Assembly: GCF_000152985.1 (NCBI RefSeq)
Contig: NZ_CH672395.1
Location: 599,849-663,848 of the forward strand
Length of the DNA: 64,000 bases
Direction: 5' to 3'
Source: Leeuwenhoekiella blandensis MED217
GTDB lineage: Bacteria; Bacteroidota; Bacteroidia; Flavobacteriales; Flavobacteriaceae
Under the pieces are notes generated by a model. That model searched no databases, was not told the origin of the DNA, and worked only from the letters and a program-made list of their open reading frames with translations. The translations under genes and the position numbers were made by a program. Of the stretch, positions 4,577 through 17,972 are shown in pieces. The stretch's first letter is position 1. Each line of letters opens with the position of its first letter.

Positions 4577-7500
4577 ATGAAAGCTAAACTACTTATTGCG
4601 CTCTTGTTGATTTTGCTTCAGCCTATTCTTGTTGAAGCTCAAAACCGTACCGTAATAAGCGGAAGCATTTATGATGCAGAGACCAAAAAGGCACTTCCTT
4701 ATGTGAATATTGGCTTTTTAAAGGAAAGTATAGGTACTGTTTCTGATGAAAACGGAGAGTTTCATTTAGCTGTTGATGCAACCACTATTGGGCAAAATTC
4801 TAGCTTGCAAATTTCTTATATCGGTTATAAAACACTAACGCTTTCTGCTGCTGAATTTTTCTCGCAAGCAGCGGGAGATTCAAAATTTTATCTAGAGCCA
4901 GAGCCTTTCAGTTTAGCAGAAGTTGTCCTAACTAACGAGTTACGAAAAGAAAAGAATATTGGTTCGTTAAGGATCAAGCAAGGCGTGACAGGTTATTGGC
5001 TTAATCCCGAAGCCTTAGGAGGTGAGATTGCCACAAGGTTTAAGGTTGAAAATAAAAAGACCAAGCTTCACGATCTCAAATTCAACATCACAAAGAATAA
5101 TTCGGGTGGTATTAAAGTGCGGGTTAATGTCTATAACTATAAAGAAGGTTACCCGGCAGAGAATATCTTAACTCAAAATATCATTTATGAAATCAGAGGA
5201 GATGGCGTGCAGACCATAAACCTTGAGCCTTATGATATTTTAGTTGATCAAGATGTCGTGGTTTCTTTAGAATTGATTGAGGTTTACGGTAGATATATAG
5301 ATTTTGAAGTTGGAGGTTCAGACTATAAAACATTTTCATTTACCAGACTTTATAACCAAGATGATTGGGAACGCGTGAACCAAGGTTTGATGTTTAGTCT
5401 GAGAGTGTCTTATCCTAGCGAGAATGGCAAAGTGATCCCACGAACTCGAATTACACCTAAAAACCTTACGGTGTATTGGGATGCTTCAATAAAAATGAGT
5501 TCAGACAGTCGTGATGTTGATGAGGAATTAAAGCTGTTGCGAAAATATTTAGATCATCTGAACTATGCTTCTGTAAATGTGATCGTTTTTAGTGCGCTTA
5601 AGATGGAAGAGAGGGCATTTTCAGTGAAAGATGGAGATTCAAAAAATATTATCAAGTTCTTAGAAAGTGTTACCTATGATGGTGAGGTAGATTTTGCAAC
5701 TATTTTAAAAGACAATACAACTGAAGCCGATGCCGCATTATTATTTTCAAACGGAAACACGATTTTTTCAGCGTTGAATCAAGAGGTATATCTGCCAACC
5801 TATAGCATAAGCTCTAGCCCTGAGGCAAATCATGAAAGCTTACAAAAAGCTAGTTTTTACGGCGAAGGACATTACATCAATTTAGAAAGCTTATCTGTTA
5901 ACGAAGCGCTTGAGCGGATGCTTACGTTTCAGGCAGACAATGAATCATTTGAAGATAATCACAAAAATACCATCACAGGAGGGATCTATACCGAAGATAC
6001 TATTGCTATTCCGCAAGCGGCCATTCGAGTTAAAAATACATTGAAAGAAACACTAAGTGATAATCTGGGTAATTTCAGTATATCTGCTGATAAAGGTGAT
6101 GTTCTTATCATTGATGCCTTAGGTATGTATGAAAAACAACTAGTGATTGAAGCCGATACAAACCTGCAGGTGGCGTTAAAGCCTAACACTACAGTTTTAG
6201 ACGAAGTCAATATTTACACAAAAATCAAGCAAGAGTCAGAAACTAGACTCACTCCGTATGGAGAGAAAAAAGTTGATGCCATTGGGTATACGGTAGATGA
6301 ACTTACAAAGAATCAAATTTTACCAACTGATACGCGCCTCGATGATATCATTGGCAGAATTCCGGGAGTTTTGATCTCGGGGGTTGGAACAAATAAACGC
6401 TATAGTTTTCTCAATAATGTTACAAGTACTACAGGGATGTTTGTAGATCCTAATCCTGCTATTGTGATTGATGGCACTCCATATTCTCAGGGAAACGGTT
6501 TAAGCAATTTGCCTCCAATTAACGTGCAGAATATAAAAAGCATCAGAGCAATAAAATCTCTTGCAGGAACTAATCGGTATGGTAGTATTGCAGCTTTTGG
6601 TGCGATAGAAATTATAACACAGGACGGCGTAGTAAATACTCAAGATAAGCATCAGGCAAACAAAAACCGTGCACTTATTAAAGGTAACGACTATCGTGAG
6701 CAAGAGGTATCTCTCTGGGAAGAGGTCAACAATACGTCGAGTTACACAAAAGAGTTAGAAATGGCTTCAACTTTTAAGGAAGCTCAACGTATTTATGAAA
6801 AGCAGAAATCTGTGACGCAGATGACTATTCCTTATATTTTAAATGTTTCAGATTACTTTAAAAAATGGGACGCTGATTACTCCTATGTTGTCTTGACCAA
6901 TATTGCAGCACTAGCAAGTGACAATCTAAAAGCATTAAAAACTTTGGTTTTTAAACTTGAAGAACGAGGGAATTTTGATAAAGCACAGATGGTCCTTGAG
7001 CGTATTTTAGAATTACGTCCTAGTGATGCTCAAACGTATCGGGATTTGGCAATGAATTATCAGGAAACCCACAAATATGAGAAAGCTTTTGATTTATATA
7101 AGCGAATGCTTGCAAATGCCATACCTGAAGCCGATTTCTCAGGATTACGTGAAGTGATAATTGATGAGTTGAAGCATTTGCTCGCGTTACACCGCAGTAA
7201 AGTTGATTTTAAAAGCTTACCTGCAGACCTACTCAAAGCAGGATTTAAACAAGATATTCGTTTAGTTTTTGAATGGAACGATCCCAACACAGATTTTGAA
7301 TTACAATTCGTAAATCCTCAGAAAAAGTATTTTAAATGGTCGCATACGCTGTTTGATAATCGAGACCGACTTCTCAACGAAGTGAATAAAGAGTATGCTG
7401 CAGAAGCTTATCTTATAGACGACGAGGAGCCTGGAGAATGGATCATCAATCTGGAAGCCTTTGATCAAGAGGATTCGAATAATCCCAACTTTTTAAAATA

Positions 7501-7609
7501 TACGATTTATAAAAACTACGGATCAAGGGACGAGACCAAATTGACTAAAGTTATTCAGCTAAACACACTGAATTCTAAGGTGACTTTAGATCGTATTGAC
7601 TATAAATAG
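4577..7609 (+). CDS. exported multi-domain protein: carboxypeptidase-like, VWA-like, TonB-plug and TPR regions
   Basis: The start at ATG 4577 puts a clean signal peptide (to about residue 22, VEAQ) at the N-terminus of a 1010-residue protein. In order: a CarboxypepD_reg-like domain (about 24-105), a beta-rich segment, a degenerate VWA-like region beginning LTVYWDAS (about 300-460), a second carboxypeptidase-regulatory-like domain (about 465-535), a TonB-dependent-receptor plug (about 585-685, with AIVIDGTPY and GAIEIIT), TPR-like helices (about 780-880) and a beta-rich C-terminus. There is no room for a 22-strand barrel, so it is not a full transporter. Its job is unknown; surface assembly or a partner role with a separate barrel is possible. 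A 14-T run lies about 48 bp upstream. Confidence 0.75.
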   Translation: MKAKLLIALLLILLQPILVEAQNRTVISGSIYDAETKKALPYVNIGFLKESIGTVSDENGEFHLAVDATTIGQNSSLQISYIGYKTLTLSAAEFFSQAAGDSKFYLEPEPFSLAEVVLTNELRKEKNIGSLRIKQGVTGYWLNPEALGGEIATRFKVENKKTKLHDLKFNITKNNSGGIKVRVNVYNYKEGYPAENILTQNIIYEIRGDGVQTINLEPYDILVDQDVVVSLELIEVYGRYIDFEVGGSDYKTFSFTRLYNQDDWERVNQGLMFSLRVSYPSENGKVIPRTRITPKNLTVYWDASIKMSSDSRDVDEELKLLRKYLDHLNYASVNVIVFSALKMEERAFSVKDGDSKNIIKFLESVTYDGEVDFATILKDNTTEADAALLFSNGNTIFSALNQEVYLPTYSISSSPEANHESLQKASFYGEGHYINLESLSVNEALERMLTFQADNESFEDNHKNTITGGIYTEDTIAIPQAAIRVKNTLKETLSDNLGNFSISADKGDVLIIDALGMYEKQLVIEADTNLQVALKPNTTVLDEVNIYTKIKQESETRLTPYGEKKVDAIGYTVDELTKNQILPTDTRLDDIIGRIPGVLISGVGTNKRYSFLNNVTSTTGMFVDPNPAIVIDGTPYSQGNGLSNLPPINVQNIKSIRAIKSLAGTNRYGSIAAFGAIEIITQDGVVNTQDKHQANKNRALIKGNDYREQEVSLWEEVNNTSSYTKELEMASTFKEAQRIYEKQKSVTQMTIPYILNVSDYFKKWDADYSYVVLTNIAALASDNLKALKTLVFKLEERGNFDKAQMVLERILELRPSDAQTYRDLAMNYQETHKYEKAFDLYKRMLANAIPEADFSGLREVIIDELKHLLALHRSKVDFKSLPADLLKAGFKQDIRLVFEWNDPNTDFELQFVNPQKKYFKWSHTLFDNRDRLLNEVNKEYAAEAYLIDDEEPGEWIINLEAFDQEDSNNPNFLKYTIYKNYGSRDETKLTKVIQLNTLNSKVTLDRIDYK

Positions 7610-7625
7610 CCTTCGAGATTTCAAC

Positions 7626-7657
7626 AAAAAACCTCTGATGAAAATCAGAGGTTTTTT
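7626..7657. terminator. bidirectional rho-independent terminator
   Basis: A stem AAAAAACCTCTGA / TCAGAGGTTTTTT (ACCTCTGA 7631-7638 with TCAGAGGT 7645-7652, extended by A-T pairs) lies between two convergent genes. It has A and T runs on both flanks, so it can stop transcription from either side. It is almost identical to the hairpin at 3128-3157. Confidence 0.8.
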
Positions 7658-7669
7658 GTTTTTTAAAAA

Positions 7670-8692
7670 TTACTGTCTATACCTAGATTGGCGTTGTACC
7701 ATCCAGCCGGGATAAAGTTTCGGTTTTGGACTCACCGCATCTATTTTTTCTAGATCTTCTTTGCTCAAATTGATTTCGGTAGACTTGATGTTTGATTGAA
7801 GTTGGTCTATAGTTTTTGCGCCAATGATCGTGCTAGTAACGCCTTTTTGATGGCGTACCCAAGCCAATGCAATTTCTGCTACTGAAACCTGATGTGTAGC
7901 TGCGAGTTCTTTCATCGCATCAACCAAGTTAAACGCTTTGTCTTTATCAATAGGCGGAAAGTCAAAATCGGCTCTTCGAGATCCTTTTTCACTGCTGCCT
8001 TCTCGAGAATATTTTCCGGTAAGAAAACCACCCGCTAACGGACTCCAAGGAAAAATCGCCAGATTATGATCTTGAGCCATCGGTACCAATTCGGTCTCAA
8101 TATCTCTGGAAACAGCCGAATAATAATATTGCAAACCAATGAATTTTTGCCAGCCTTTGTGCTCAGCGATGGCTTGTGCTTTAGCAACCATCCACGCCGG
8201 CCAGTTGCAAATGGCGATATAACGCACTTTTCCGGTAGCAACGATATCATTGAGCGATTGTAAAATTTGTTCTACAGGTACTTTAGCATCTACACCGTGT
8301 ACATATAAAATATCAATGTGATCCAGCTGTAAACGCTTTAAACTCGCATCAACCGAATTGAAAATATGATAGCGAGAAAGACCTACATCATTAGGGTTTT
8401 CGCTCATTGGGCCCAAAACTTTAGTTGCGACCACAACTTCATCGCGATTGATTCCTAGATCTTTCAGTCCTTGTCCTAGTAATTGCTCTGATTGCCCAAA
8501 GGAGTACACATTAGCCGTATCAATAAAATTGATTCCGGCGTCAAAAACCGCTTTGAGCATCTGGTTCACTTCTTTCTGAGGTACCGATGCGATCTGGCTC
8601 CACGTTCCTGCATCTACTCCGCCAAAGGTCATCGTCCCAAAACAAAGTTCAGATACCATAAGACCGGTATCGCCTACATAATTAAATTTCAT
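7670..8692 (-). CDS. aldo/keto reductase
   Basis: A 340-residue TIM-barrel NAD(P)H-dependent oxidoreductase. The catalytic tetrad is visible: D58, Y63 (NVYSFG), K91 (VVATK) and H132 (LYVHG). The C-terminal cofactor-binding stretch TSTIIGAKTIDQLQSN is also present. It has no signal peptide and should act in the cytoplasm, reducing an aldehyde or ketone; the substrate is not predictable. It lies 105 bp downstream of the dienelactone hydrolase fragment on the same strand. The two genes may once have been adjacent, before the 8808-18252 segment arrived. Confidence 0.92.
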   Translation of the reverse strand: MKFNYVGDTGLMVSELCFGTMTFGGVDAGTWSQIASVPQKEVNQMLKAVFDAGINFIDTANVYSFGQSEQLLGQGLKDLGINRDEVVVATKVLGPMSENPNDVGLSRYHIFNSVDASLKRLQLDHIDILYVHGVDAKVPVEQILQSLNDIVATGKVRYIAICNWPAWMVAKAQAIAEHKGWQKFIGLQYYYSAVSRDIETELVPMAQDHNLAIFPWSPLAGGFLTGKYSREGSSEKGSRRADFDFPPIDKDKAFNLVDAMKELAATHQVSVAEIALAWVRHQKGVTSTIIGAKTIDQLQSNIKSTEINLSKEDLEKIDAVSPKPKLYPGWMVQRQSRYRQ

Positions 8693-8797
8693 GTTTTAAA
8701 TTTTCCTTTAAAGTTATGCAGCGCGGGCTTCTTCTGTTTTAAATTGAGGTTAAAGTTTGAGAGCACGCATTTTAAACCTTCAATCAAAAAAGATTAA

Positions 8798-9052
8798 TCA
8801 GGACAGATGTTCTTTAAAAAAGGCAATGGTACGTTCCCAGGCGAGTTCAGCGGCTTCTTTGTCGTAACGGGGTGTGGTATTGTTGTGAAAGCCATGATTT
8901 ACATCAGGATATAAAAACATCCCGTATTCTTTATTGTGCGCTTTTAGCTTGGCTTCATAAGCCGGCCATCCGGCATTTATGCGCTCGTCGAGACCGGCAT
9001 ATTGCAATAAAAGCGGCGCTTGAATTTGATCAATATCTTCTGTGGGTTGCAT
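8798..9052 (-). pseudogene. truncated dienelactone hydrolase, C-terminal fragment
   Basis: The 84 codons match residues 212 to the end of the full-length dienelactone hydrolase at 18240-19127. The fragment keeps the Asp and His of the catalytic triad but has lost the nucleophilic Cys and the whole N-terminal half, so it cannot be an active hydrolase. At the DNA level 243 bp are shared with 7 differences, all synonymous. The last residues differ (HLS against HLNN). The first ATG is formed at the break point and is probably accidental. It marks the left edge of an inserted segment. Confidence 0.85.
8808..9050. repeat. left copy of a 243-bp direct repeat (dienelactone hydrolase 3' end)
   Basis: This stretch aligns without gaps to 18253-18495 in the same orientation, with 7 mismatches (about 97% identity). 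Similarity stops abruptly on both sides. The pair encloses the 9.2-kb block holding the exported-protein operon and the sigma/CHAT genes. Recombination between the copies would delete that block and leave one intact hydrolase gene. Confidence 0.85.
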
Positions 9053-9114
9053 GGCATGTATTAATATCTTAAGAACAACTATAAGAAGTTTTAGCTAAGG
9101 CAGGTGTGTAAAAA

Positions 9115-9138
9115 AAAGCCCCTCAAATGAGGAGCTTT
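9115..9138 (-). terminator. terminator of the exported-protein operon
   Basis: A hairpin AAAGC-C-CCTC / GAGG-A-GCTTT with a 4-nt loop lies 45 bp beyond the end of the lipoprotein gene at 9183. On the minus strand it is followed by a run of T (the A run at 9110-9117 on the plus strand). It would close the operon 13530 to 9183. Confidence 0.65.
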
Positions 9139-9182
9139 AAAAAAGGCGTTTCACAAAACTTAAAATTCTTGTACTTCCTGTC

Positions 9183-9638
9183 TCAATAATGAACGGAGAA
9201 ACTTCCGTTTTCTATGGTGTAACTGGCTGCTTCAGAGTTCATAGGTTTGCTCGTGAAATTAAAACTTCCCTTGATGTATTTGTTTTTAGTATCGTGGGAC
9301 TCGATTATCAGCTGGCCGGCATTTGCAAATGAGAAATCTTCGTCTGTTTTTTGGTATTTACCCTGAATACCCATATCGTAACTGTATGTGCCGGCACCAG
9401 TATCCTGTGGTAAAAAAAGTTGAATATCCTCACCGTTACCCATACTGCCGCTTAATAACAATGTATTGGTGATTTCTGTAATGTGTCCTTCTGCAAATTT
9501 TGCAGTAAAGTCTTTGCCGTTAACGACCGCCGTAAAACTATTTTTGGACAAGTTTTTACCTGCTTTTGAATTTTGACAGGCAGATACGATTATCAGCAGC
9601 AAAAGCGCGATTGCCGCAAATGATTTCTTTGTTGTCAT
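9183..9638 (-). CDS. small lipoprotein, DUF6252-like
   Basis: A 151-residue protein with a lipoprotein signal (LLIIVSAC, lipidated Cys at about 21). The mature part is beta-rich and contains FTAVVNGKDFTAKFAEGHI, which resembles the DUF6252 family of small Bacteroidota lipoproteins. It should sit on the outer membrane or in the periplasm. It is the last gene of a five-gene minus-strand operon of exported proteins. Function is unknown; family assignment is from pattern memory only. Confidence 0.7.
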   Translation of the reverse strand: MTTKKSFAAIALLLLIIVSACQNSKAGKNLSKNSFTAVVNGKDFTAKFAEGHITEITNTLLLSGSMGNGEDIQLFLPQDTGAGTYSYDMGIQGKYQKTDEDFSFANAGQLIIESHDTKNKYIKGSFNFTSKPMNSEAASYTIENGSFSVHY

Positions 9639-9656
9639 AGATTTAGTTTTAATGAT

Positions 9657-10202
9657 TTAAATCCAGACGATAAGGTTGGCCTCTTCAATTTTACCGCTGC
9701 TACCCATGGGTATGGCTTTAATTTTAACCAAATATTTGCCCTTGGTGAGATTACCAGGATAAACGCCTTTTTCAAGTGGATTACCTTGCGCAAAAGTGAG
9801 TAGTGGGATAACGTCAAAGGCCTCTACAGGTTCGAGCATTTCACCGGGAAAAAAGGTAAGCGGTTCGCGTTTTACACTGCGCATCAGTTTTCCGTCTTTG
9901 TAGATCTCGGTCACAAAGGAGAAGAGTGCCACGCCACGGCCTTGTTGATCTTTAGGCAAGCCTGCTCCTTTAAATACAAATTGAATCTGATGTTTATTTG
10001 TTTTAAAATTCTTAAATAGATCTACAACGTTGCCTTGATTGAGGCGTAGCTCGACCGAAGATTTTCCGTTAACGAGCAGTTGACCTGCAACCTGAGCTTT
10101 TTGGCTAGGCGAGATGCTTCGGTTTAAACTGGTTTTTGAGATTTGCGCTTGGGCGAAAGCGACGCTAAAAACGATTGCGAAAAGAAGAGTTATTTTTTTC
10201 AT
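9657..10202 (-). CDS. exported protein of unknown function
   Basis: A 181-residue protein with a signal peptide ending at AQAQ (about residue 19). The mature part has beta-strand character, with paired patterns such as VAGQLLVNGKSSVELRL and GKYLVKIKAIP that suggest a single beta-sandwich domain. No catalytic motif is seen and no family is recognised. It lies 18 bp before the lipoprotein gene and 56 bp after the gene at 10259-10909, all on one strand, so it is likely co-transcribed with them. Confidence 0.65.
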   Translation of the reverse strand: MKKITLLFAIVFSVAFAQAQISKTSLNRSISPSQKAQVAGQLLVNGKSSVELRLNQGNVVDLFKNFKTNKHQIQFVFKGAGLPKDQQGRGVALFSFVTEIYKDGKLMRSVKREPLTFFPGEMLEPVEAFDVIPLLTFAQGNPLEKGVYPGNLTKGKYLVKIKAIPMGSSGKIEEANLIVWI

Positions 10203-10258
10203 GATTAAAAATGGAATTAATAAAAGTTTTAAAAGTGATTAGGTGTTTTTGGAGTTAA

Positions 10259-10909
10259 TTATTCGACCCATATTTTGTCTATTGCATAATTCACTCCGGT
10301 GGCCGGAAAACCATAAAATTGGATCAGGACACTATCTACATCGGCAATGTCAAAAGCAGATGGGCTATCGGTCGTAGCTTTCTTGGCTGTTAGCTGTTCA
10401 AGCGGAATACTGATTACTTTTTTGCTGTTTACCCCCATAGCATTTATAGAACCTTGAAAGGGAAGGTGATTTTCTCTGTTACCTCTCCAGAATGCCCGGT
10501 TTGCACCATTAGACCACATATTGAGATAGACCCGGGCAAAATTGGTTTTGCCTTTCAAGCTGATTTTGATGGTTTTGTAACGGGATAAATCCATATTAAG
10601 CGCTCGCTCCCGGTTGCCACCATAGGTAATGTTCATTGAACTTGCAGTACCAAAGCCGGTACTGCTAATGAGAGTACCTTTTTGAATAGTGAGTTGAAAA
10701 AGCTGTTGATAAGGATTTTCGGTCACATTATACGTGATGTAGCGTGTGCCTCCCAGAATGTTTTTTCCGGGTTGTTCAATTTTTATTTTTTCGGCTTTTA
10801 GCGTTGTAATTTGCTTCAGAGGGCCGGTTGTAAAATCGTCCCATACCTGTTGTGCTTCTGCGAAAGCGAAACAGTGAACAACAAAAAGTAGATTGATAAG
10901 AGTTCTCAT
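10259..10909 (-). CDS. exported protein, possible galactose-binding-like beta-sandwich
   Basis: The start was set at ATG 10909, giving 216 residues with a clean signal peptide (AFAEAQ, to about residue 19). A longer frame opening at 11074 would run deep into the upstream gene and hide the signal peptide. The mature part is a single beta-rich domain ending VDSVLIQFYGFPATGVNYAIDKIWVE. That layout recalls CIA30 or carbohydrate-binding jelly-roll folds, but no family is confirmed. It starts 10 bp after the gene at 10920-12212. Confidence 0.65.
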   Translation of the reverse strand: MRTLINLLFVVHCFAFAEAQQVWDDFTTGPLKQITTLKAEKIKIEQPGKNILGGTRYITYNVTENPYQQLFQLTIQKGTLISSTGFGTASSMNITYGGNRERALNMDLSRYKTIKISLKGKTNFARVYLNMWSNGANRAFWRGNRENHLPFQGSINAMGVNSKKVISIPLEQLTAKKATTDSPSAFDIADVDSVLIQFYGFPATGVNYAIDKIWVE

Positions 10910-10919
10910 AATTTCTTTT

Positions 10920-12212
10920 TTAAAGAGGAAGCAACTCCATTGTGTAGTGATACCCGAAGCGTATTTTACCTTTTTTAGGTTCGATAATATCGCCATAGCC
11001 ACGTACATAGCGCTTACCGCCAATGCTCTCCAGCCAAAAAGTGTCATTACTATTGGGTAGGCGTCTTCTGCCATTTGTCCCGTTTACCAGAGGATAATCT
11101 TCAGCACGGGTCTGGCCGCTTAAAAACTTTAAAACTTCTTTGAGTTCAATATTTCTCTTGGCGTTTATTCTTTCGTTTTCGGCAAAAACTAAAGCACCTC
11201 CTTTAGAAATAACCGGAAACTCGCGAAAAACAAATTGCATTTTTGCAGCGTACCGGCCTGGCTGAAATAAATTGATAGGATAGATAATGGGATAAACAGC
11301 GCTGTTGTTTATTTGTATGGCAGTACCTACCGGATAATTTTCTTTAAATCTGGCATCTGGGGTATATAAGCTTGACCGGTGTTCTGATACTTTTTGATCT
11401 CCTGTCTGTATATTAAAATTGCCCGGTTTTACATCAACTCCCATTGTTTGAAGTGAAGGGACAACATATACAAAACCCTGCTCTCGGTTAAATAAGTTAT
11501 CAGCCCCATTACACTTAAAACTGTTTAAAGTGATTTTGAGCTTAAATTTAGGTTGGGGTGCAGTACTTCTGTCTGTTGTGGATGAGGTTGTGGTATTTTC
11601 CCTGACACGGGTACCGTTCCAGCTGCCGTATTCGTTAGCGTCAAATTTTCCTTTAAACGTGTTGTTGTCTGTGAAAATAAAGCTGCAAGTACGGGGTTCA
11701 CGGCCTAGTGCGTTGGTATAATTGCCGGTAAAAATTTTTGTGCCAGCATATTTTCCCCAGATCATTCCACCTTTATCTCCATAATGTCCAGCAACAATTC
11801 CCGTAGGGCTGTGGATTAAGAAGAGGTCTTCATAATCAGTGTTCCATTGCCCTTTGAGATAGTGTTGCTTCACATCAGCCACAAGGTTACCGTCCCAAGA
11901 ACCACCTTCGAGTTTGTATGTCCATCCCCATTTTCCGGTAAAGCCTTTGGCGGTTTTGGTAAACTTGAAATGGCCTTCTTTTCCATTATTGTAAAACACC
12001 CCAATGAGTTGATTATTACTAACGTACATTGATCGAATTCCGCCCAAATCACGGTAAGTACCCACTACATAGTTGGCTTTTTGATGTAGGATGATCTGGC
12101 CAAAATTAGTATTGTAAGTGCCAGTCCAATCTGTAGCTGTATTGGTGTCTTTAGCATGTGTCTGGCTCAATGACAGAGCTGTCATAAACAGAAGTAATAG
12201 TATACGTTTCAT
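10920..12212 (-). CDS. exported beta-rich protein with two internal N-terminal repeats
   Basis: A 430-residue protein with a signal peptide ending at THAK (about residue 20). Residues 29-108 and 119-200 are two copies of one motif. Each begins with a G-x-(Y/W)-N-T pattern, then G-x-Y-x-D-x-GG(I/M), and closes with GSW(D/N)G. The C-terminal 200 residues are unrelated, with strands around GIDVKPGNFNIQTGD-like segments and an end at HYTMELLPL. No enzyme motif is visible and no family is recognised. It lies 10 bp from both neighbours in the operon. A structural or binding role outside the inner membrane is a guess. Confidence 0.65.
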   Translation of the reverse strand: MKRILLLLFMTALSLSQTHAKDTNTATDWTGTYNTNFGQIILHQKANYVVGTYRDLGGIRSMYVSNNQLIGVFYNNGKEGHFKFTKTAKGFTGKWGWTYKLEGGSWDGNLVADVKQHYLKGQWNTDYEDLFLIHSPTGIVAGHYGDKGGMIWGKYAGTKIFTGNYTNALGREPRTCSFIFTDNNTFKGKFDANEYGSWNGTRVRENTTTSSTTDRSTAPQPKFKLKITLNSFKCNGADNLFNREQGFVYVVPSLQTMGVDVKPGNFNIQTGDQKVSEHRSSLYTPDARFKENYPVGTAIQINNSAVYPIIYPINLFQPGRYAAKMQFVFREFPVISKGGALVFAENERINAKRNIELKEVLKFLSGQTRAEDYPLVNGTNGRRRLPNSNDTFWLESIGGKRYVRGYGDIIEPKKGKIRFGYHYTMELLPL

Positions 12213-12222
12213 ATGTTTAGGA

Positions 12223-13530
12223 TTAAAGTTTAGAAATGGTCACACGACGGTTCAAGGCTTTGGCTGTAACAGTGTTTTCTGTTGAAACGGGCTCAGAAGA
12301 TCCTTTGCCGGCAGTTTGAAGTCTTGAGCTATCTATACCAAATTCACTAACTAATGCCGCTTTTACCGCTTCGGCTCTGCTTTCAGACAAAGGCATATTT
12401 AAAGCAACATCTCCGTCAGAATCAGTATGTCCTGTAATAAGATAATTGCCGGTAGCATCGCTCTGGATGGCTTGTGCGATTTGCTTAATACTGGCATATG
12501 AAGCAGGCTGAATGCTGGCGCTACCACTGTCAAAAGTGATTCCATAAGCAGTATGGGTTCCATTTTTAAAAAGGCGCTCACCGCTCTCGACACCTGTGGC
12601 AAACTTGACATTGCCCAGATAGAAGTATTCATTTTTAGGACTCACGTTACTTTCAAAACGCAGCGTGCGGTAGTTTATCTCGCTCTCTGCCCCACGTGGA
12701 ATGTCGAGCACTTTATCCTGATCAACATAGACTTTGATGCGACTGCCTTTTTTAAGAATGGCAATGTGATAGGGGACACCACTTTTCCCGTTTTTTGAAA
12801 ATGCAGGATGGTTGTTGCTGCCTGAAACATTCATGCCTTTTTGAACGGTTTTCTTATTTAGCACTACCGCGCGAGTTGATGACGAATTGCTCAGGCTTAT
12901 GGTGGTCACTTGTTTTCCGTAACTAAACTTATCCATATACATGTTGGGGTTCTCAAGTTCAGATAGTACCACATTTACATAGCGTTTAAAGGCATAGTTT
13001 TCTGCATTAAAGTCATACAGCATATCAAATTCTAGCGTAAAGTCTTTTGGTAAATCCTGAGGAATTCCTTCAAAAACATAAGTTCCCAAACCATTACCTA
13101 TGCGCAACCATTTACCCGGTAGTGTAGAAAGTGTAACTACCTCTGCACTCGAGTTGGTATTCCATTTTTGAGGTAAATCACCCAAGAGATCTTCAGAGAA
13201 ATCTTCAAAAGCCACAAGGTTTGTGCCTGGTACAAAGTCGTATTTGCTGTAAGCTTCAAAGCCCTTTTCCTCATAGCTTTCTGCAGTATCCTGAGGATAC
13301 TCCATTTCATCCATCTCCATATCATCAGTCATAGGAAACTCTTCATCTTCATCCTCATCTTCGAGTCCTAATATTTTATCAACCTGTTTGTCGGCCTTGT
13401 CTTCCAGACTTTTTGTGGTTTTATCAAGTTTTTGCTCTAGCTTCTTGGTAAGCTTTTTTAAGAACTGGGCCTCAATAGTACCAGTGTAGCAAAAGGCCAT
13501 CAGTACCAATAAAAATGTAAGGTGTTTCAT
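12223..13530 (-). CDS. OmpA-family outer-membrane protein with acidic linker and LamG-like middle domain
   Basis: A 435-residue protein: signal peptide (to about 22), a Lys/Asp-rich coiled stretch (25-52), a very acidic linker (about 57-90), a LamG/jelly-roll-like domain (about 100-315) and a C-terminal OmpA peptidoglycan-binding domain (about 325-435). The OmpA part shows ITGHTDSDG, LSESRAEAVKAAL and NRRVTISKL. The protein would tie the cell wall to the outer membrane or periplasmic partners. It is the first gene of the five-gene exported operon and is transcribed away from the ECF sigma factor gene 116 bp off, so the two may share control. Confidence 0.85.
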   Translation of the reverse strand: MKHLTFLLVLMAFCYTGTIEAQFLKKLTKKLEQKLDKTTKSLEDKADKQVDKILGLEDEDEDEEFPMTDDMEMDEMEYPQDTAESYEEKGFEAYSKYDFVPGTNLVAFEDFSEDLLGDLPQKWNTNSSAEVVTLSTLPGKWLRIGNGLGTYVFEGIPQDLPKDFTLEFDMLYDFNAENYAFKRYVNVVLSELENPNMYMDKFSYGKQVTTISLSNSSSTRAVVLNKKTVQKGMNVSGSNNHPAFSKNGKSGVPYHIAILKKGSRIKVYVDQDKVLDIPRGAESEINYRTLRFESNVSPKNEYFYLGNVKFATGVESGERLFKNGTHTAYGITFDSGSASIQPASYASIKQIAQAIQSDATGNYLITGHTDSDGDVALNMPLSESRAEAVKAALVSEFGIDSSRLQTAGKGSSEPVSTENTVTAKALNRRVTISKL

Positions 13531-13646: not shown

Positions 13647-14186
13647 ATGATTGAAGAACCAACTCTAGAACAATTACGAACAGGAGATTCTGAGGCCTAT
13701 ACTAAAATTTATGAAGCTTATCGAGATAGCTTTCTTGGCTATGCCAGAAAGTATGAGCTTTCAGAGGAAGATGTCTTGGAGATTTATCAGGATAGTGTAG
13801 TAAAACTCTATGAAAATGTGATGAGCAGAAAGCTTAACAAGCTCACCAGTAGCCTAAAAACCTATTTGTTTAGTATTGGGAAGTTTAAGATTTATGAACA
13901 GTTGCGATACCGTAAGAAGCGAGTCAGTAGGGAAGAATCAGATTTTAAGACTGAAACTTTTGAGCAATCTTATTTTGAAGAACATCAGCTTACAGAACGC
14001 CAGATCGCGTTACGTAAACATTTTGAAACCTTAGGTGTACGCTGCAAAACACTGTTGAACTGCTTTTATCTCAAAGGCATGAGTCTGGAGGAGATCAAGC
14101 AAGCAGAACAGTATGAAAACGTCAATACGGTAAAGGCGGCAAAGTCTAGGTGTATGAAACAATTAAAAGAAAAAATGATCCCCTAA
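13647..14186 (+). CDS. ECF-type RNA polymerase sigma factor
   Basis: A 179-residue sigma-70 family protein. Region 2 spans about residues 15-85 (YTKIYEAYRDSFLGYARKY, then a DxVVKLYENV helix). Region 4 is about 125-175 and holds a helix-turn-helix (GMSLEEIKQAEQYENVNTVKAAKSRCMKQL). It should guide RNA polymerase to a small set of promoters. The next gene begins 2 bp downstream and encodes a membrane protein with the layout of an anti-sigma factor. Divergent orientation to the exported-protein operon makes that operon a likely target. Confidence 0.9.
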   Translation: MIEEPTLEQLRTGDSEAYTKIYEAYRDSFLGYARKYELSEEDVLEIYQDSVVKLYENVMSRKLNKLTSSLKTYLFSIGKFKIYEQLRYRKKRVSREESDFKTETFEQSYFEEHQLTERQIALRKHFETLGVRCKTLLNCFYLKGMSLEEIKQAEQYENVNTVKAAKSRCMKQLKEKMIP

Positions 14187-14188
14187 TC

Positions 14189-14917
14189 ATGAATAAAGAA
14201 GAACTTGTTGAACGTTATTTTTCAGGAATTCTAAGTGAAGATGAGGCACGCCGACTCCAGAAGGAGCTACAAAAGGATGCTGCTTTTTCAGAAGCCTTTG
14301 AGTTGGAAAAAGAGCTACAGGCAGTCTTGGTATCCAAAGGCAAAAACGATTTAAAGTCGAGGCTGTCTCATTTAGAGGCTGATAAGTACCTTAAAGATCA
14401 GTCGTCCCAAGGTTCCAATTGGTTGCGGTATGTGGCGGCAGCTGCTATAGTGATTGGTCTAAGTATTTTTGGGGCGCTATATATGGGTAACAATGCCACT
14501 CCAGAAGAATTGTATACAGAAAATTTTGAACCCTACCGCAATATCATTGCACCCGTGGTACGTGGTGGAAATGCTGAGAGTCTACTCGAAAAAAGCTTTG
14601 CGGCCTATGAGCGGGGCAACTTTGAGCAGGCCGAAGAAGCATTTGAAACCCTTTATGAAGCAAGCGGGGACCGGTATTTACTTTTTTACCGGGGTAATGC
14701 TCTTTTGGCTTTGGATCGTGTAGAAGAAGCTATTACTGTTTTTGAGTCGCATCAGGAAACCCAAGATAATTTTTACTATAAATCCAGGTGGTATTTGGCT
14801 CTGGCCTATCTAAAACACAATAAGCCCGAAATGGCTCTTACATTGCTTAAAGAACAAGTAAGTCAAAAGGCGTTTAATTATAGAGCTGCAGAAACCCTAT
14901 TAAGTAAATTAGAATGA
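14189..14917 (+). CDS. membrane anti-sigma-like protein with periplasmic TPR region
   Basis: The start at ATG 14189 follows the sigma stop after 2 bp and gives 242 residues. Residues 1-78 are charged and helical (MNKEELVERYFSGIL, typical of anti-sigma N-termini). A membrane helix lies at about 81-99 and TPR-like helices at about 130-240. The predicted topology is N-terminus in the cytoplasm, where it would hold the sigma factor, and TPRs in the periplasm. No zinc-binding HxxxCxxC anti-sigma motif is seen. The next gene encodes a TPR-CHAT protease predicted on the same side of the membrane as the TPRs. Confidence 0.75.
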   Translation: MNKEELVERYFSGILSEDEARRLQKELQKDAAFSEAFELEKELQAVLVSKGKNDLKSRLSHLEADKYLKDQSSQGSNWLRYVAAAAIVIGLSIFGALYMGNNATPEELYTENFEPYRNIIAPVVRGGNAESLLEKSFAAYERGNFEQAEEAFETLYEASGDRYLLFYRGNALLALDRVEEAITVFESHQETQDNFYYKSRWYLALAYLKHNKPEMALTLLKEQVSQKAFNYRAAETLLSKLE

Positions 14918-14939
14918 CTTGCTTTTATAAATAGTATAT

Positions 14940-17900
14940 ATGGTTTTAAAACTAGCATTTACCCGATTTTTACTCGTTTGCTTTTGTAGCATTTCTTTTG
15001 TTTCTGCACAACAAATAGATACCAGTTCGTTGGACTATAAAAGGCAAGTAGCAGCATTAAAAACCTGGAAAAAACAAGAGGCTGCAGATCGTGGTTACCA
15101 GCGAGCAACTCTTGAAAAGCTCAATGATCTAAAATCCTATTTTTCTCAGGTTCCGCAAGGTAAACCTTATATTACCACCCTGATGGAGACCGCATTATAT
15201 TATGAGCGTGAGAGGACCATAAAAGAGGCACTTCCAAAATACGAGTTGGCTCTTGAGGCCTTTAGAAAATCTTCCCTTAAGGACACCTGGCTAGTCAATA
15301 AACTATTAAACCGATATGCAGGTGCTTTATACGAGGCCGGAAAAAATCTTCAGGGGATCGCAATAACTAAAGAACTACTGGCTTTTAATAAAAAACACTA
15401 TCAAGAGGAGGTGGGCAGAACATATTTAAACCTCGCTGCTATGTATACTAAATCTTCTAACAGGGAGCTGAGCTTAATCTATAACGACAGCGCATATCAA
15501 CACACTAAAGAATCTGGTCTTGCAGATAATACTAATTTGGGAGCTTTTATTCAGTTTAATAAGGCCATGAGTTTAAGGGCTACAGGGGCCTATCAAGAAT
15601 CCAGAGAGGCAATGCAACGCGCAAATAAGATTTATGATTCATTGAATTATCATACCATACCTTCTCGAAGGGTTAACTATTTATTGTACAATTCCTATGT
15701 GTTAAATGGCCCAGGCACGTTGCAGGCTTCAAAAGCATCAATAGAAGAAATTAGAGAGGCACTGGCTATTTTCGATTCTATAAATCCTTTAAACTACAAT
15801 GCATATTATTTAAACATCCTTTATTCTGAGAACCTGTTTGTTTTAGAAGATTATAAAAAGGCATTAGAAGAAAATAAAAAGGGTATTGAAGTTTTAATAC
15901 ACAATTTTGGCATATCAAACCCAGACCTTTCTTTATCCTACGTACAGCAGGGACGTATCTACAATCGTTTACATGAAATAGATTCTGCGCGGATCTATTT
16001 TGAAAAATCTCTTTCCTTTTTTCCAAAGAGTAAAGACGAAGAGAATAAATATCGTTTCTCAGAGGTGGCACTTGAAGTGGCTTTGTTTTACGCACAACAA
16101 GGTGAAAGACAGAAAGCGATAGACCTTACACTGGCTGCTTTAAATTCGCTAAGCGTGGGTGTTAAGCTCAATTCTATTTTGCAAAATATAGATTTTTCTA
16201 AAATCCCTGCACACCCTGAGCTGGCTTCCCGTTTTTTTTTACAATCTAAAATATTAGAAAACCTTTATAAAGAAAATGAAGACCTAGCTTTGCTTGATCG
16301 AGCTTCACAGGCAATGCTTGATTGCCTAAAAGCTGTTAATCAGAGTAAAGAGGCTTTATTTAATCTCAAAAGCAAATCACGATTTTATGAACTAAAAGGG
16401 AACTATTTTGATAATGCCATTCGTATAACCCATGAGCTCTATGCAAAAACGCAACAAAAAGAGCACCTCAGAAGAGCGTTAGTGATTATGGAACTACATA
16501 AAAATGCCACCCTGCGTTCTCTTATTAATGACAGCAGGCAATACCTTGATAATTTAATTCCTTTGAAGGTGAGATCTGAAGAATTGGAGCTGCAGGCAGA
16601 AATTAATATTCTCGAAGAGCAACTGCAGCAACCCTATGATTCTCTTGTGCCTGCATTGGTTAAAGAACATGCTGCGCTTAAGGCAAGTGTCTTGGCCAAA
16701 AAAGAGGCTATGCATCAATGGCTTCTGCGAATCAAGAAGGAATACCCGGAATACTATGAATTGCAGTATAAAAACACAGACTGGATTGCATCTATTCAAA
16801 ATGAAATTGATTCTTGGATGGAATCTTCGTCAGATGCGTTGACTATTCAGTTTTTTGAGAGTGAAACGTCGTGGTTTGTTATTGCAAGGAAAGGAGCAGA
16901 CTTTAAATTTCTAAAGCTTGATCGAAGCGAGGCATTCAATAAGAATATAGATCAGTTTTTACTTGCGATTTCCAGTCCCGGAGAAATAGAATTTGCAAAT
17001 GAAGGACTGGCCATTTACAGTCGGTTATTAGCACCTTTAGGTACAGGTTTTCTGTCAGCCCGGGATTATTTCATAATTCCAGATGGGACGCTGTCTTTCC
17101 TCCCTTTTGAAAGTCTCATTTCTAAGAAGCCGCAAAATGTTGGAGCCTGGAGTGATTATGCATATTTGATTAAAGAGCATCGATTTTCATACCTCAATTC
17201 TCTCTTAGAAGCCACCTATCAAAATCGCGAGCAGGTCTCCCAATCGGTGATGGTTTTTGCTCCTTTTGCATTTGTATCAGATCAATCAGGAACCATGAGA
17301 AGTTTGGCTAGCACCCATGGTTTGGGAGCGCTTGATTTTACAAATGATGAAGCCGAGGCTATTTATAATTTAAAAGAGGCTAAAATATTCAAAGCCTTCG
17401 ATGCTACCGAAACTGCAGTCAAAGAACAAACAAAAGCCTTTGCTATATTACACTTGGCCACACACGCTGTGGTTGATGGTGAAAACCCTATGAGCTCCAA
17501 ATTGATTTTTGCTAAGGACTCTTTAAACGACGGGTATTTGTACAATTATGAACTTCCTACATTAAATCTGGATGCTGATCTAGTCTGCTTATCAGCTTGC
17601 GAAACCGGTTTAGGGCAATATCAAAAAGGAGAAGGTGTTTTGAGTCTTGCTCGCGGATTTCAGTTGGCTCAAATCCCAAATATTATGATGACCCTTTGGA
17701 AAATTCCCGATGCTTCCTCTAGTGCCTTGATGACGGGTTTTTATGAAAATCTGGAAGATAATCGTTATGCAGATGCACTCCACAAGGCAAAATTAAATTT
17801 TGTGGATCAACAGGATGATACCTATGCACACCCGTATTATTGGAGCGCTTTTATTCTGGTAGGTCAGCCCGCCGAAAACACTATTTCTCACGTAATTATT

Positions 17901-17972
17901 TATACTATAGTGGGAATTTTGTTGGGGCTTGTTTGCTTTTATTTTATACGGAAACGTCGAAAAGGCGTTTAA
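14940..17972 (+). CDS. exported TPR-CHAT cysteine protease with C-terminal membrane anchor
   Basis: A 1010-residue protein. A signal peptide (to about residue 24, SFVSAQQ) is followed by many TPR-like helical repeats (about 60-560), a coiled segment, and a CHAT domain (about 700-980). The CHAT catalytic dyad is visible: H842 in LHLATHA and C887 in LSACETG. A membrane helix near residues 982-1002 is followed by FIRKRRKGV, placing the tail in the cytoplasm and the protease in the periplasm. CHAT proteins are caspase-like peptidases. It starts 22 bp after the anti-sigma gene, so a sigma/anti-sigma/protease unit is likely. Confidence 0.88.
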   Translation: MVLKLAFTRFLLVCFCSISFVSAQQIDTSSLDYKRQVAALKTWKKQEAADRGYQRATLEKLNDLKSYFSQVPQGKPYITTLMETALYYERERTIKEALPKYELALEAFRKSSLKDTWLVNKLLNRYAGALYEAGKNLQGIAITKELLAFNKKHYQEEVGRTYLNLAAMYTKSSNRELSLIYNDSAYQHTKESGLADNTNLGAFIQFNKAMSLRATGAYQESREAMQRANKIYDSLNYHTIPSRRVNYLLYNSYVLNGPGTLQASKASIEEIREALAIFDSINPLNYNAYYLNILYSENLFVLEDYKKALEENKKGIEVLIHNFGISNPDLSLSYVQQGRIYNRLHEIDSARIYFEKSLSFFPKSKDEENKYRFSEVALEVALFYAQQGERQKAIDLTLAALNSLSVGVKLNSILQNIDFSKIPAHPELASRFFLQSKILENLYKENEDLALLDRASQAMLDCLKAVNQSKEALFNLKSKSRFYELKGNYFDNAIRITHELYAKTQQKEHLRRALVIMELHKNATLRSLINDSRQYLDNLIPLKVRSEELELQAEINILEEQLQQPYDSLVPALVKEHAALKASVLAKKEAMHQWLLRIKKEYPEYYELQYKNTDWIASIQNEIDSWMESSSDALTIQFFESETSWFVIARKGADFKFLKLDRSEAFNKNIDQFLLAISSPGEIEFANEGLAIYSRLLAPLGTGFLSARDYFIIPDGTLSFLPFESLISKKPQNVGAWSDYAYLIKEHRFSYLNSLLEATYQNREQVSQSVMVFAPFAFVSDQSGTMRSLASTHGLGALDFTNDEAEAIYNLKEAKIFKAFDATETAVKEQTKAFAILHLATHAVVDGENPMSSKLIFAKDSLNDGYLYNYELPTLNLDADLVCLSACETGLGQYQKGEGVLSLARGFQLAQIPNIMMTLWKIPDASSSALMTGFYENLEDNRYADALHKAKLNFVDQQDDTYAHPYYWSAFILVGQPAENTISHVIIYTIVGILLGLVCFYFIRKRRKGV

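Follow-up and report, generated by a model that had tools for sequence, protein, structure and literature searches.

A predicted caspase-like periplasmic switch for an ECF sigma factor in a flavobacterium

In a 64,000-nucleotide stretch of the Leeuwenhoekiella blandensis MED217 genome (GCF_000152985.1, contig NZ_CH672395.1, positions 599,849 to 663,848 of the forward strand; hereafter the window), three neighboring genes, separated by gaps of 2 and 22 bp, encode a sigma factor, a one-helix membrane protein resembling an anti-sigma factor, and a TPR-CHAT protein with a predicted export signal and a C-terminal anchor. The three genes and the features discussed below, in window coordinates, are as follows.

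13647..14186 (+), ECF-type sigma factor, 179 aa
14189..14917 (+), single-pass membrane anti-sigma-like protein with extracytoplasmic TPRs, 242 aa
14189..14392 (+), predicted cytoplasmic four-helix domain (residues 1-68), the likely anti-sigma domain
14420..14482 (+), transmembrane helix (residues 78-98), from the model and hydropathy of relatives
14501..14566 (+), juxtamembrane motif (residues 105-126), predicted protease recognition and cleavage segment
14561..14566 (+), R125-G126, predicted scissile bond (P1-P1')
14582..14911 (+), extracytoplasmic TPR domain (residues 132-241), from the model
14940..17972 (+), TPR-CHAT protease, predicted to be exported, 1010 aa
14940..15011 (+), signal-peptide-like N-terminus (residues 1-24)
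17010..17867 (+), CHAT domain (residues 691-976)
17349..17351 (+), E804, predicted S1-pocket acid that reads Arg at P1
17463..17465 (+), H842, catalytic His
17598..17600 (+), C887, catalytic Cys
17709..17711 (+), D924, a second column that follows the specificity class
17892..17966 (+), C-terminal membrane anchor (residues 985-1009) with basic tail

The 179-aa protein matched NCBIfam TIGR02937 over residues 16-177 (E=2.4e-17) and Pfam Sigma70_r2 (E=1.5e-7), although region 4 was not matched by a Pfam model of its own, and the family profile matched the structures of SigW, SigH, and RpoE (5wuq, E=1.2e-13). The 242-aa protein has TPRs (TPR_16, E=1.9e-8) but only a weak NCBIfam anti-sigma match (E=0.013), and no anti-sigma family above cut-off was seen for it. 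Its model (mean pLDDT 88) has a four-helix N-terminal part (helices 3-11, 17-29, 31-49, and 52-68), the transmembrane helix, and TPR helices from residue 132, for which the best structural match was the YbgF TPR (Z 15.5, 113 residues, rmsd 1.6). No anti-sigma fold appeared among the structure matches, a list filled by TPR proteins. Four helices define class I anti-sigma domains (PMC7406223), and the protein lies next to a sigma gene in 123 of 130 of the pairs described below; the anti-sigma assignment thus rests on context and helix count rather than on a curated family, and sigma binding is inferred.

The 1010-aa protein has a full CHAT domain (PF12770, E=1.1e-54, 186.3 bits against a cut-off of 24), a signal-peptide-like N-terminus, and a C-terminal transmembrane segment at residues 985-1003 by hydropathy. 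H842 and C887 align with the catalytic residues of relatives. A search against PDB sequences returned nothing, and profiles of the whole CHAT protein and of the anti-sigma protein matched TPR, PPR, or other repeat proteins. The model (mean pLDDT 79) matched the Csx29/Craspase TPR-CHAT best (Z 32.0, 585 residues, rmsd 5.5) and also matched yeast separase (Z 26.4, 643 residues, rmsd 5.5). PADLOC gave only one chance-level match for the three proteins (E=0.044).

The trio proved to be a widespread Bacteroidota module, linked far beyond chance. Of 126 family genomes with a strong anti-sigma match, 121 also encode a CHAT domain, against 14 of 173 others (Fisher p=3e-60). The cut-off for a strong match (E<1e-25) was set by eye in a gap between about 1e-27 and 1e-16, and the profile came mostly from CHAT-linked anti-sigmas, so this association may be somewhat inflated; the relatedness of genomes was not corrected for. 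Thirty-four of 39 family loci taken from a CHAT search alone hold the anti-sigma homologue, 33 of them next to a sigma gene (47 and 44 of 55 if loci chosen with knowledge of both hits are added), and 45 of 58 named Bacteroidota CHAT loci hold an adjacent sigma and anti-sigma. In the host genus, 5 of 5 genomes with the anti-sigma have a CHAT like that of the 1010-aa protein (E<1e-20), compared to 0 of 8 others, two of which have weaker CHAT matches.

Linkage did not extend to a fixed operon. In two sister species of the same genus, the CHAT gene is not in the sigma locus, and the partner may lie elsewhere; in one sister locus, the 314-aa ORF that follows the anti-sigma has no meaningful BLAST match to the CHAT protein and no Pfam family, and the 204-aa ORF has only a chance-level Pfam match. 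More broadly, 43 anti-sigmas had no CHAT within 7 genes, some of them on short contigs, and ten neighbors of anti-sigmas without CHAT, one each from 10 of 22 such loci, revealed no common protease. Across 130 pairs, gene order also varied (68 convergent adjacent, 35 divergent apart, 22 collinear adjacent, and 5 other), with CHAT on the other strand from the sigma operon in 105 of 130. This arrangement is one that a separate sigma target could have, and it raises the possibility that the CHAT protein is an output of the sigma factor, for example a cell-death or envelope-clearing protease, linked only because the sigma controls its gene; bacterial CHAT proteases do cut other neighbors such as gasdermin (PMC9729208). 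However, no shared promoter-like element stood out upstream of sigma and CHAT genes in a crude word-pair count, and this view does not predict the residue-level covariation described below. We consider it improbable.

The predicted topologies place the CHAT domain and the extracytoplasmic part of the anti-sigma on the same side of the membrane. By simple hydropathy, a C-terminal membrane segment was present in 127 of 128 complete relatives of the CHAT protein and a signal-peptide-like start in 114 of 128, with more Lys/Arg after than before the C-terminal segment in 122 of 127. The anti-sigma had one transmembrane segment in 128 of 129 complete relatives and positive-inside charge in 127 of 129. 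Of note, the most conserved part of the anti-sigma is neither the cytoplasmic domain nor the TPRs but residues 102-128, just outside the membrane (mean KL 1.81, compared to 1.33 for the cytoplasmic, 1.65 for the transmembrane, and 1.42 for the TPR parts; 85 pairs). The juxtamembrane motif within it, about 26 residues beyond the membrane, ends at R125-G126.

To ask whether the two proteins are matched to each other, we aligned 130 nonredundant anti-sigma/CHAT pairs, drawn from the higher-scoring part of the search list and reduced from 132 by removing near-identical anti-sigmas. The catalytic His and Cys were present in 130 of 130. Position 125 of the anti-sigma is Arg in 108 of 108 pairs whose CHAT has Glu at 804 and in 0 of 22 others, which are mostly Met-Ser. 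E804 ranked first of 393 CHAT columns, and position 125 ranked first of 233 anti-sigma columns. CHAT position 924 also followed the class, being Asp in 108 of 108 E804 pairs and Glu in 18, Asp in 2, Ala in 1, and Pro in 1 of the other 22. The residue after position 125 is small in most pairs (62 RG, 34 RS, and 15 MS), as expected of a cut site. An earlier set of 85, selected with a different filter, gave 72 Arg, 12 Met, and 1 Lys; the Lys case reads Arg in the final alignment. The rule also held in all 41 pairs retrieved after it was first seen (31 R/E, 10 neither). In the wider stretch of residues 119-128, 2 of the 22 non-Glu pairs do contain an Arg, though not at 125, and three of the 22 have Gly, His, or a gap at the aligned column. 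In addition, of the 43 anti-sigmas without a nearby CHAT, 34 have Arg at 125 and 4 have Met, so Arg is kept also where no partner is near.

Such a pattern could in principle arise if positions 125 and 804 were only markers of old subfamilies inherited together, without direct contact, and 17 of the 22 non-Glu pairs do form one clade. There are only about four joint changes on the tree, one at a node without support. Nonetheless, Pagel's test supported correlated change (p = 8.5e-8), 0 of 20000 simulations were concordant, and the rule held in the 113 pairs outside the large Met clade (Fisher p=7e-9). Genomes with both classes keep them matched locus by locus; one has 3 R/E pairs and 1 M/L pair, a second has 1 and 1, and a third has 4 R/E and 2 non-R/non-E pairs. 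Together with the ranking of these columns at the top of the scans of both proteins, this leaves shared ancestry alone a very unlikely explanation.

Covariation requires contact, not catalysis. The anti-sigma segment might therefore sit in the CHAT site without being cut, holding the protease inactive, much as securin appears to act as a pseudosubstrate of separase, to which the fold is close; alternatively, the CHAT protein might pull or shield the anti-sigma by binding only. The invariant His and Cys, the small residue after position 125, and a location about 26 residues outside the membrane, which fits site-1 cleavage, argue against this, and we regard it as unlikely, although not excluded. 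The placement of E804 in the S1 pocket is likewise an inference. Profile comparison with C14 metacaspases aligned only the His motif and was uninformative here, and a low-confidence alignment puts a Glu at this place in Sb TPR-CHAT, which cuts Csx30 after Leu (PMC9729208).

The preliminary description of this locus suggested that a signal activates the CHAT protease, which cuts or moves the anti-sigma protein and frees the sigma factor. Our analysis supports that interpretation, with the correction that the three-gene operon is not fixed even in close relatives, and points to a protease-substrate relation at a defined bond. We imagine that the anti-sigma holds the sigma at the inner membrane with its cytoplasmic helices and shows a short tethered segment plus TPRs to the periplasm, while the TPR-CHAT protease, exported and anchored in the inner membrane by its C terminus, is normally idle. 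When its TPR part senses an envelope signal, the CHAT site (H842/C887, with E804 reading the P1 arginine) would cut the anti-sigma at R125-G126 and remove the TPR domain; the stump would then be cut in the membrane by the RseP-like protease, freeing the sigma. One RseP-family match is present in the genome. In other lineages, Arg/E804 is replaced by Met (or Leu) with a hydrophobic or small residue at 804, so that each protease would recognize its own anti-sigma. Cleavage, sigma inhibition, the site-2 step, the role of the TPRs as sensor, the signal, and the regulon are inferred, but we are fairly confident that this is the best reading of the comparative evidence.

Among the closest parallels is the Csx29/Csx30/CASP-sigma system of type III-E CRISPR (Craspase), in which a TPR-CHAT protease with a His-Cys dyad cleaves an inhibitor of an ECF sigma encoded nearby and so relieves inhibition (PMC10028731). 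There, the protease is RNA triggered and bound to the Cas7-11 effector. Here, it has a signal-like start and a membrane anchor, which Csx29 probably lacks, and the anti-sigma is a membrane protein. No direct-repeat family of 23 bp or more with copies within 400 bp was found in positions 1-40000 of the window; the neighbors scanned were limited to an OmpA protein, a YghX-like hydrolase, and an unassigned protein. The 1010-aa protein also matched, by Foldseek, solved structures of the transmembrane anti-sigma factor DdvA of Myxococcus xanthus (8rot and 8rw5, E about 1e-11, deposited as "CHAT domain-containing protein"). The cognate sigma, DdvS, controls an antiphage island with CBASS and type III-B CRISPR-Cas (PMC12288465). 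In DdvA, anti-sigma and CHAT seem to be one chain with an incomplete active site and proposed self-cleavage, whereas here, and in the relatives' loci, they are two separate ORFs, with an intact dyad and a predicted trans site. In the sigma-E envelope stress response, a site-1 cut of the membrane anti-sigma RseA by DegS, likely a trypsin-like PDZ protease, is followed by RseP cleavage and sigma release (PMC10028731); here, the predicted site-1 enzyme is a separase-like cysteine protease joined to TPRs. Eukaryotic separase similarly combines a helical-repeat arm with a caspase-like domain and cuts after Arg, but reads P1 Arg with D2151 (PMC9729208), while the covarying acid in these CHATs is E804. 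The kind of switch is already known, but we did not find this variant described in the papers that we could search.

A broader possibility, which we judge about as likely as not, is that Bacteroidota use a large family of mutually insulated caspase-like envelope switches, each exported TPR-CHAT protease recognizing its own ECF anti-sigma through a P1/S1 code (Arg with Glu804, Met or Leu with a hydrophobic or small residue). Several such pathways would run side by side in one cell; six matched pairs of two classes were seen in one genome, and up to 25 anti-sigma matches were seen in one genome. In this view, the Csx29/Csx30 and the fused DdvA systems are offshoots of this wider kind.

One survey found class I anti-sigmas beside only 6% of Bacteroidetes ECF sigma factors, against 32% across phyla, and left open how the rest are controlled (PMC7406223). 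A common sigma/TPR anti-sigma/CHAT module with a predicted cut site offers one testable answer. It would extend caspase-like signaling from CRISPR to envelope sensing and supply natural protease-substrate pairs with two specificities for use as orthogonal switches.

All three ORFs lie on the + strand, separated by gaps of 2 and 22 bp, and are as laid out in the preliminary description, which had proposed a unit of sigma factor, membrane anti-sigma protein, and exported TPR-CHAT protease. They are found in a 4.24-Mb single-contig genome. The first encodes an ECF sigma factor. The second, P0002, referred to here as the anti-sigma, is a 242-aa one-helix membrane protein; its predicted model (mean pLDDT 88) has four N-terminal helices, a transmembrane helix at residues 78-98, and TPR helices from residue 132, with a conserved stretch at about residues 105-126. 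The third, P0003, is a 1010-aa exported TPR-CHAT protein with a full CHAT domain, the residues H842 and C887, and a C-terminal anchor with a basic tail.

To ask whether the linkage of these genes is real, we searched related genomes. P0003 matched 56 of 120 family genomes and 17 of 60 relatives, and P0002 matched 17 of 60 relatives. Sixty loci were retrieved. Of the 39 taken from the CHAT search of the family genomes alone, 34 hold the anti-sigma homologue, and 33 have it next to a sigma gene; when loci for which both hits were already known are included, the counts are 47 and 44 of 55. The eight loci without it are L090, L097, L098, L105, L109, L116, L121, and L136. Aminicenantes and Acidobacteriota-type CHAT loci (L177, L183, and L217) have a sigma-like gene nearby but no adjacent anti-sigma of this family. 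Over 299 family genomes, 121 of the 126 with a strong anti-sigma match also have a CHAT domain, against 14 of the 173 others.

Gene order differs among these loci, with sigma-anti followed by CHAT in line, sigma-anti facing CHAT tail to tail, or sigma-anti divergent from a small cluster that includes CHAT. In four convergent loci (L100, L103, L107, and L108), the 3′ ends of the anti-sigma and CHAT genes overlap by 8 to 21 bases on opposite strands. Association despite shuffled gene order argues for function rather than inheritance of one operon. Of note, a cluster divergent from sigma-anti recurs at positions 6444-13166 of locus L111 and in similar loci (L110, L112, L113, L117, L135, L275, L280, and L306); it comprises a 147-aa retropepsin-like aspartyl protease (PF13650), an 860-aa CHAT, a 650-aa PKD/DUF7619/DUF7849 protein, and one or more small unknowns, although the proteins were scanned for families only in L111. 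A second protease may belong to this version of the pathway.

Within the same genus, two genomes (G121 and G124) keep the sigma and anti-sigma, at 65-79% identity, between the same OmpA and hydrolase genes, but without the CHAT gene there. Both have a TPR-CHAT with a signal-like start and a C-terminal membrane segment elsewhere, at loci L097 and L098. Of 13 genomes of the genus, the five with the anti-sigma are the five with a P0003 match at E<1e-20; two others (G123 and G130) have weaker matches around 1e-15. The unlinked CHAT of L097 has Glu at the position of E804 of P0003, and the orphan anti-sigmas keep R-G, consistent with the rule developed below.

The predicted topology places the CHAT domain and the conserved anti-sigma stretch on the same side of the membrane. 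Among the pooled pairs, 127 of 128 complete CHAT proteins have a C-terminal membrane segment, 114 have a signal-peptide-like start, and 113 have both; 122 of 127 have more Lys/Arg after the segment than before it. Of 129 complete anti-sigmas, 128 have a single membrane segment and 127 have the charge pattern of an inside N-terminus. These assignments rest on simple hydropathy rules rather than on a trained predictor.

The stretch just outside the membrane is the most conserved part of the anti-sigma. It ends in Arg-Gly or Arg-Ser in most and in Met-Ser in a class with about 1080-aa CHATs. In a first set of 85 pairs, six acidic CHAT columns were conserved in the Arg class, and only E804 was lost in the Met class. 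We then retrieved 60 further loci, most of them from other families of the class, and 20 more. In 130 non-redundant one-to-one pairs, aligned afresh, position 125 is Arg in 108 of 108 pairs with E804 and in 0 of 22 without it (18 Met, 1 Leu, 1 Gly, 1 His, and 1 gap). In the three with Gly, His, or a gap, a Met or Leu is next to the column, while two of the 22 have an Arg elsewhere within residues 119-128. The 41 pairs retrieved after the rule was seen obey it without exception (31 and 10). In column scans, E804 is first of 393 CHAT columns and position 125 is first of 233 anti-sigma columns (0.656 bits against 0.545 and 0.37 for the runners-up).

On a CHAT-domain tree built without columns 804 and 924, each character needs four changes, and, as the two agree in all 130 tips, these fall on the same branches: a 17-member clade (support 0.996), the pair at L296, those at L283 and L285 together (0.979), and those at L274 and L279 together (0.0). 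Pagel's test gives LR 38.6, p = 8.5e-8, and none of 20000 independent simulations reached full concordance. Furthermore, three genomes that carry both classes (G038, G045, and G333) keep them matched within each locus.

Several features make this look like a P1/S1 relationship. Position 125 is a median of 26 residues beyond the membrane segment and is mostly followed by a small residue. In the predicted model of P0003, E804 lies at the start of the helix after the first core strand of the CHAT. Metacaspases appear to carry the aspartate that reads P1 Arg at the corresponding place, in an L-G-C-x-N-D motif; a metacaspase-like protein of the same genome aligns with plant metacaspase-4 at that N-D-V, but profile comparison with the CHATs did not extend to it. 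Thus, the S1 role is an inference supported by chemistry, with an acid for Arg and a hydrophobic or small residue for Met and Leu. D924, four residues after a conserved Trp, changes with the same classes. It is worth noting that this genome has three C14 caspase-like matches within 10 kb (G000, contig C1, 3003390-3013362), one of which also scores weakly as CHAT.

We favor a model in which the CHAT protein acts as a site-1 protease. CHAT would cut the anti-sigma at 125-126, the TPR domain, possibly the sensor, would leave, and an RseP-type enzyme, for which there is one family match in the genome, would complete release of the sigma, which would then act. This order of events, the cleavage itself, and sigma binding are inferred. 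The strongest alternative is that CHAT binds the anti-sigma without cutting it.

The predicted model of P0003 is closest to the Csx29/Craspase TPR-CHAT (Z 32.0, 585 residues, rmsd 5.5) and then to separase and TPR proteins. DdvA, a transmembrane anti-sigma, is among the top Foldseek matches. We found no paper describing the present arrangement, judging by titles and the opening of abstracts in a collection without most subscription journals or any preprints, so this is no proof of novelty. Csx29 cuts Csx30, an inhibitor of an ECF sigma (PMC10028731), and the authors of that study call the likeness to DegS/RseA convergent. In the model proposed here, the present system joins the two, with a CHAT enzyme in the DegS position.
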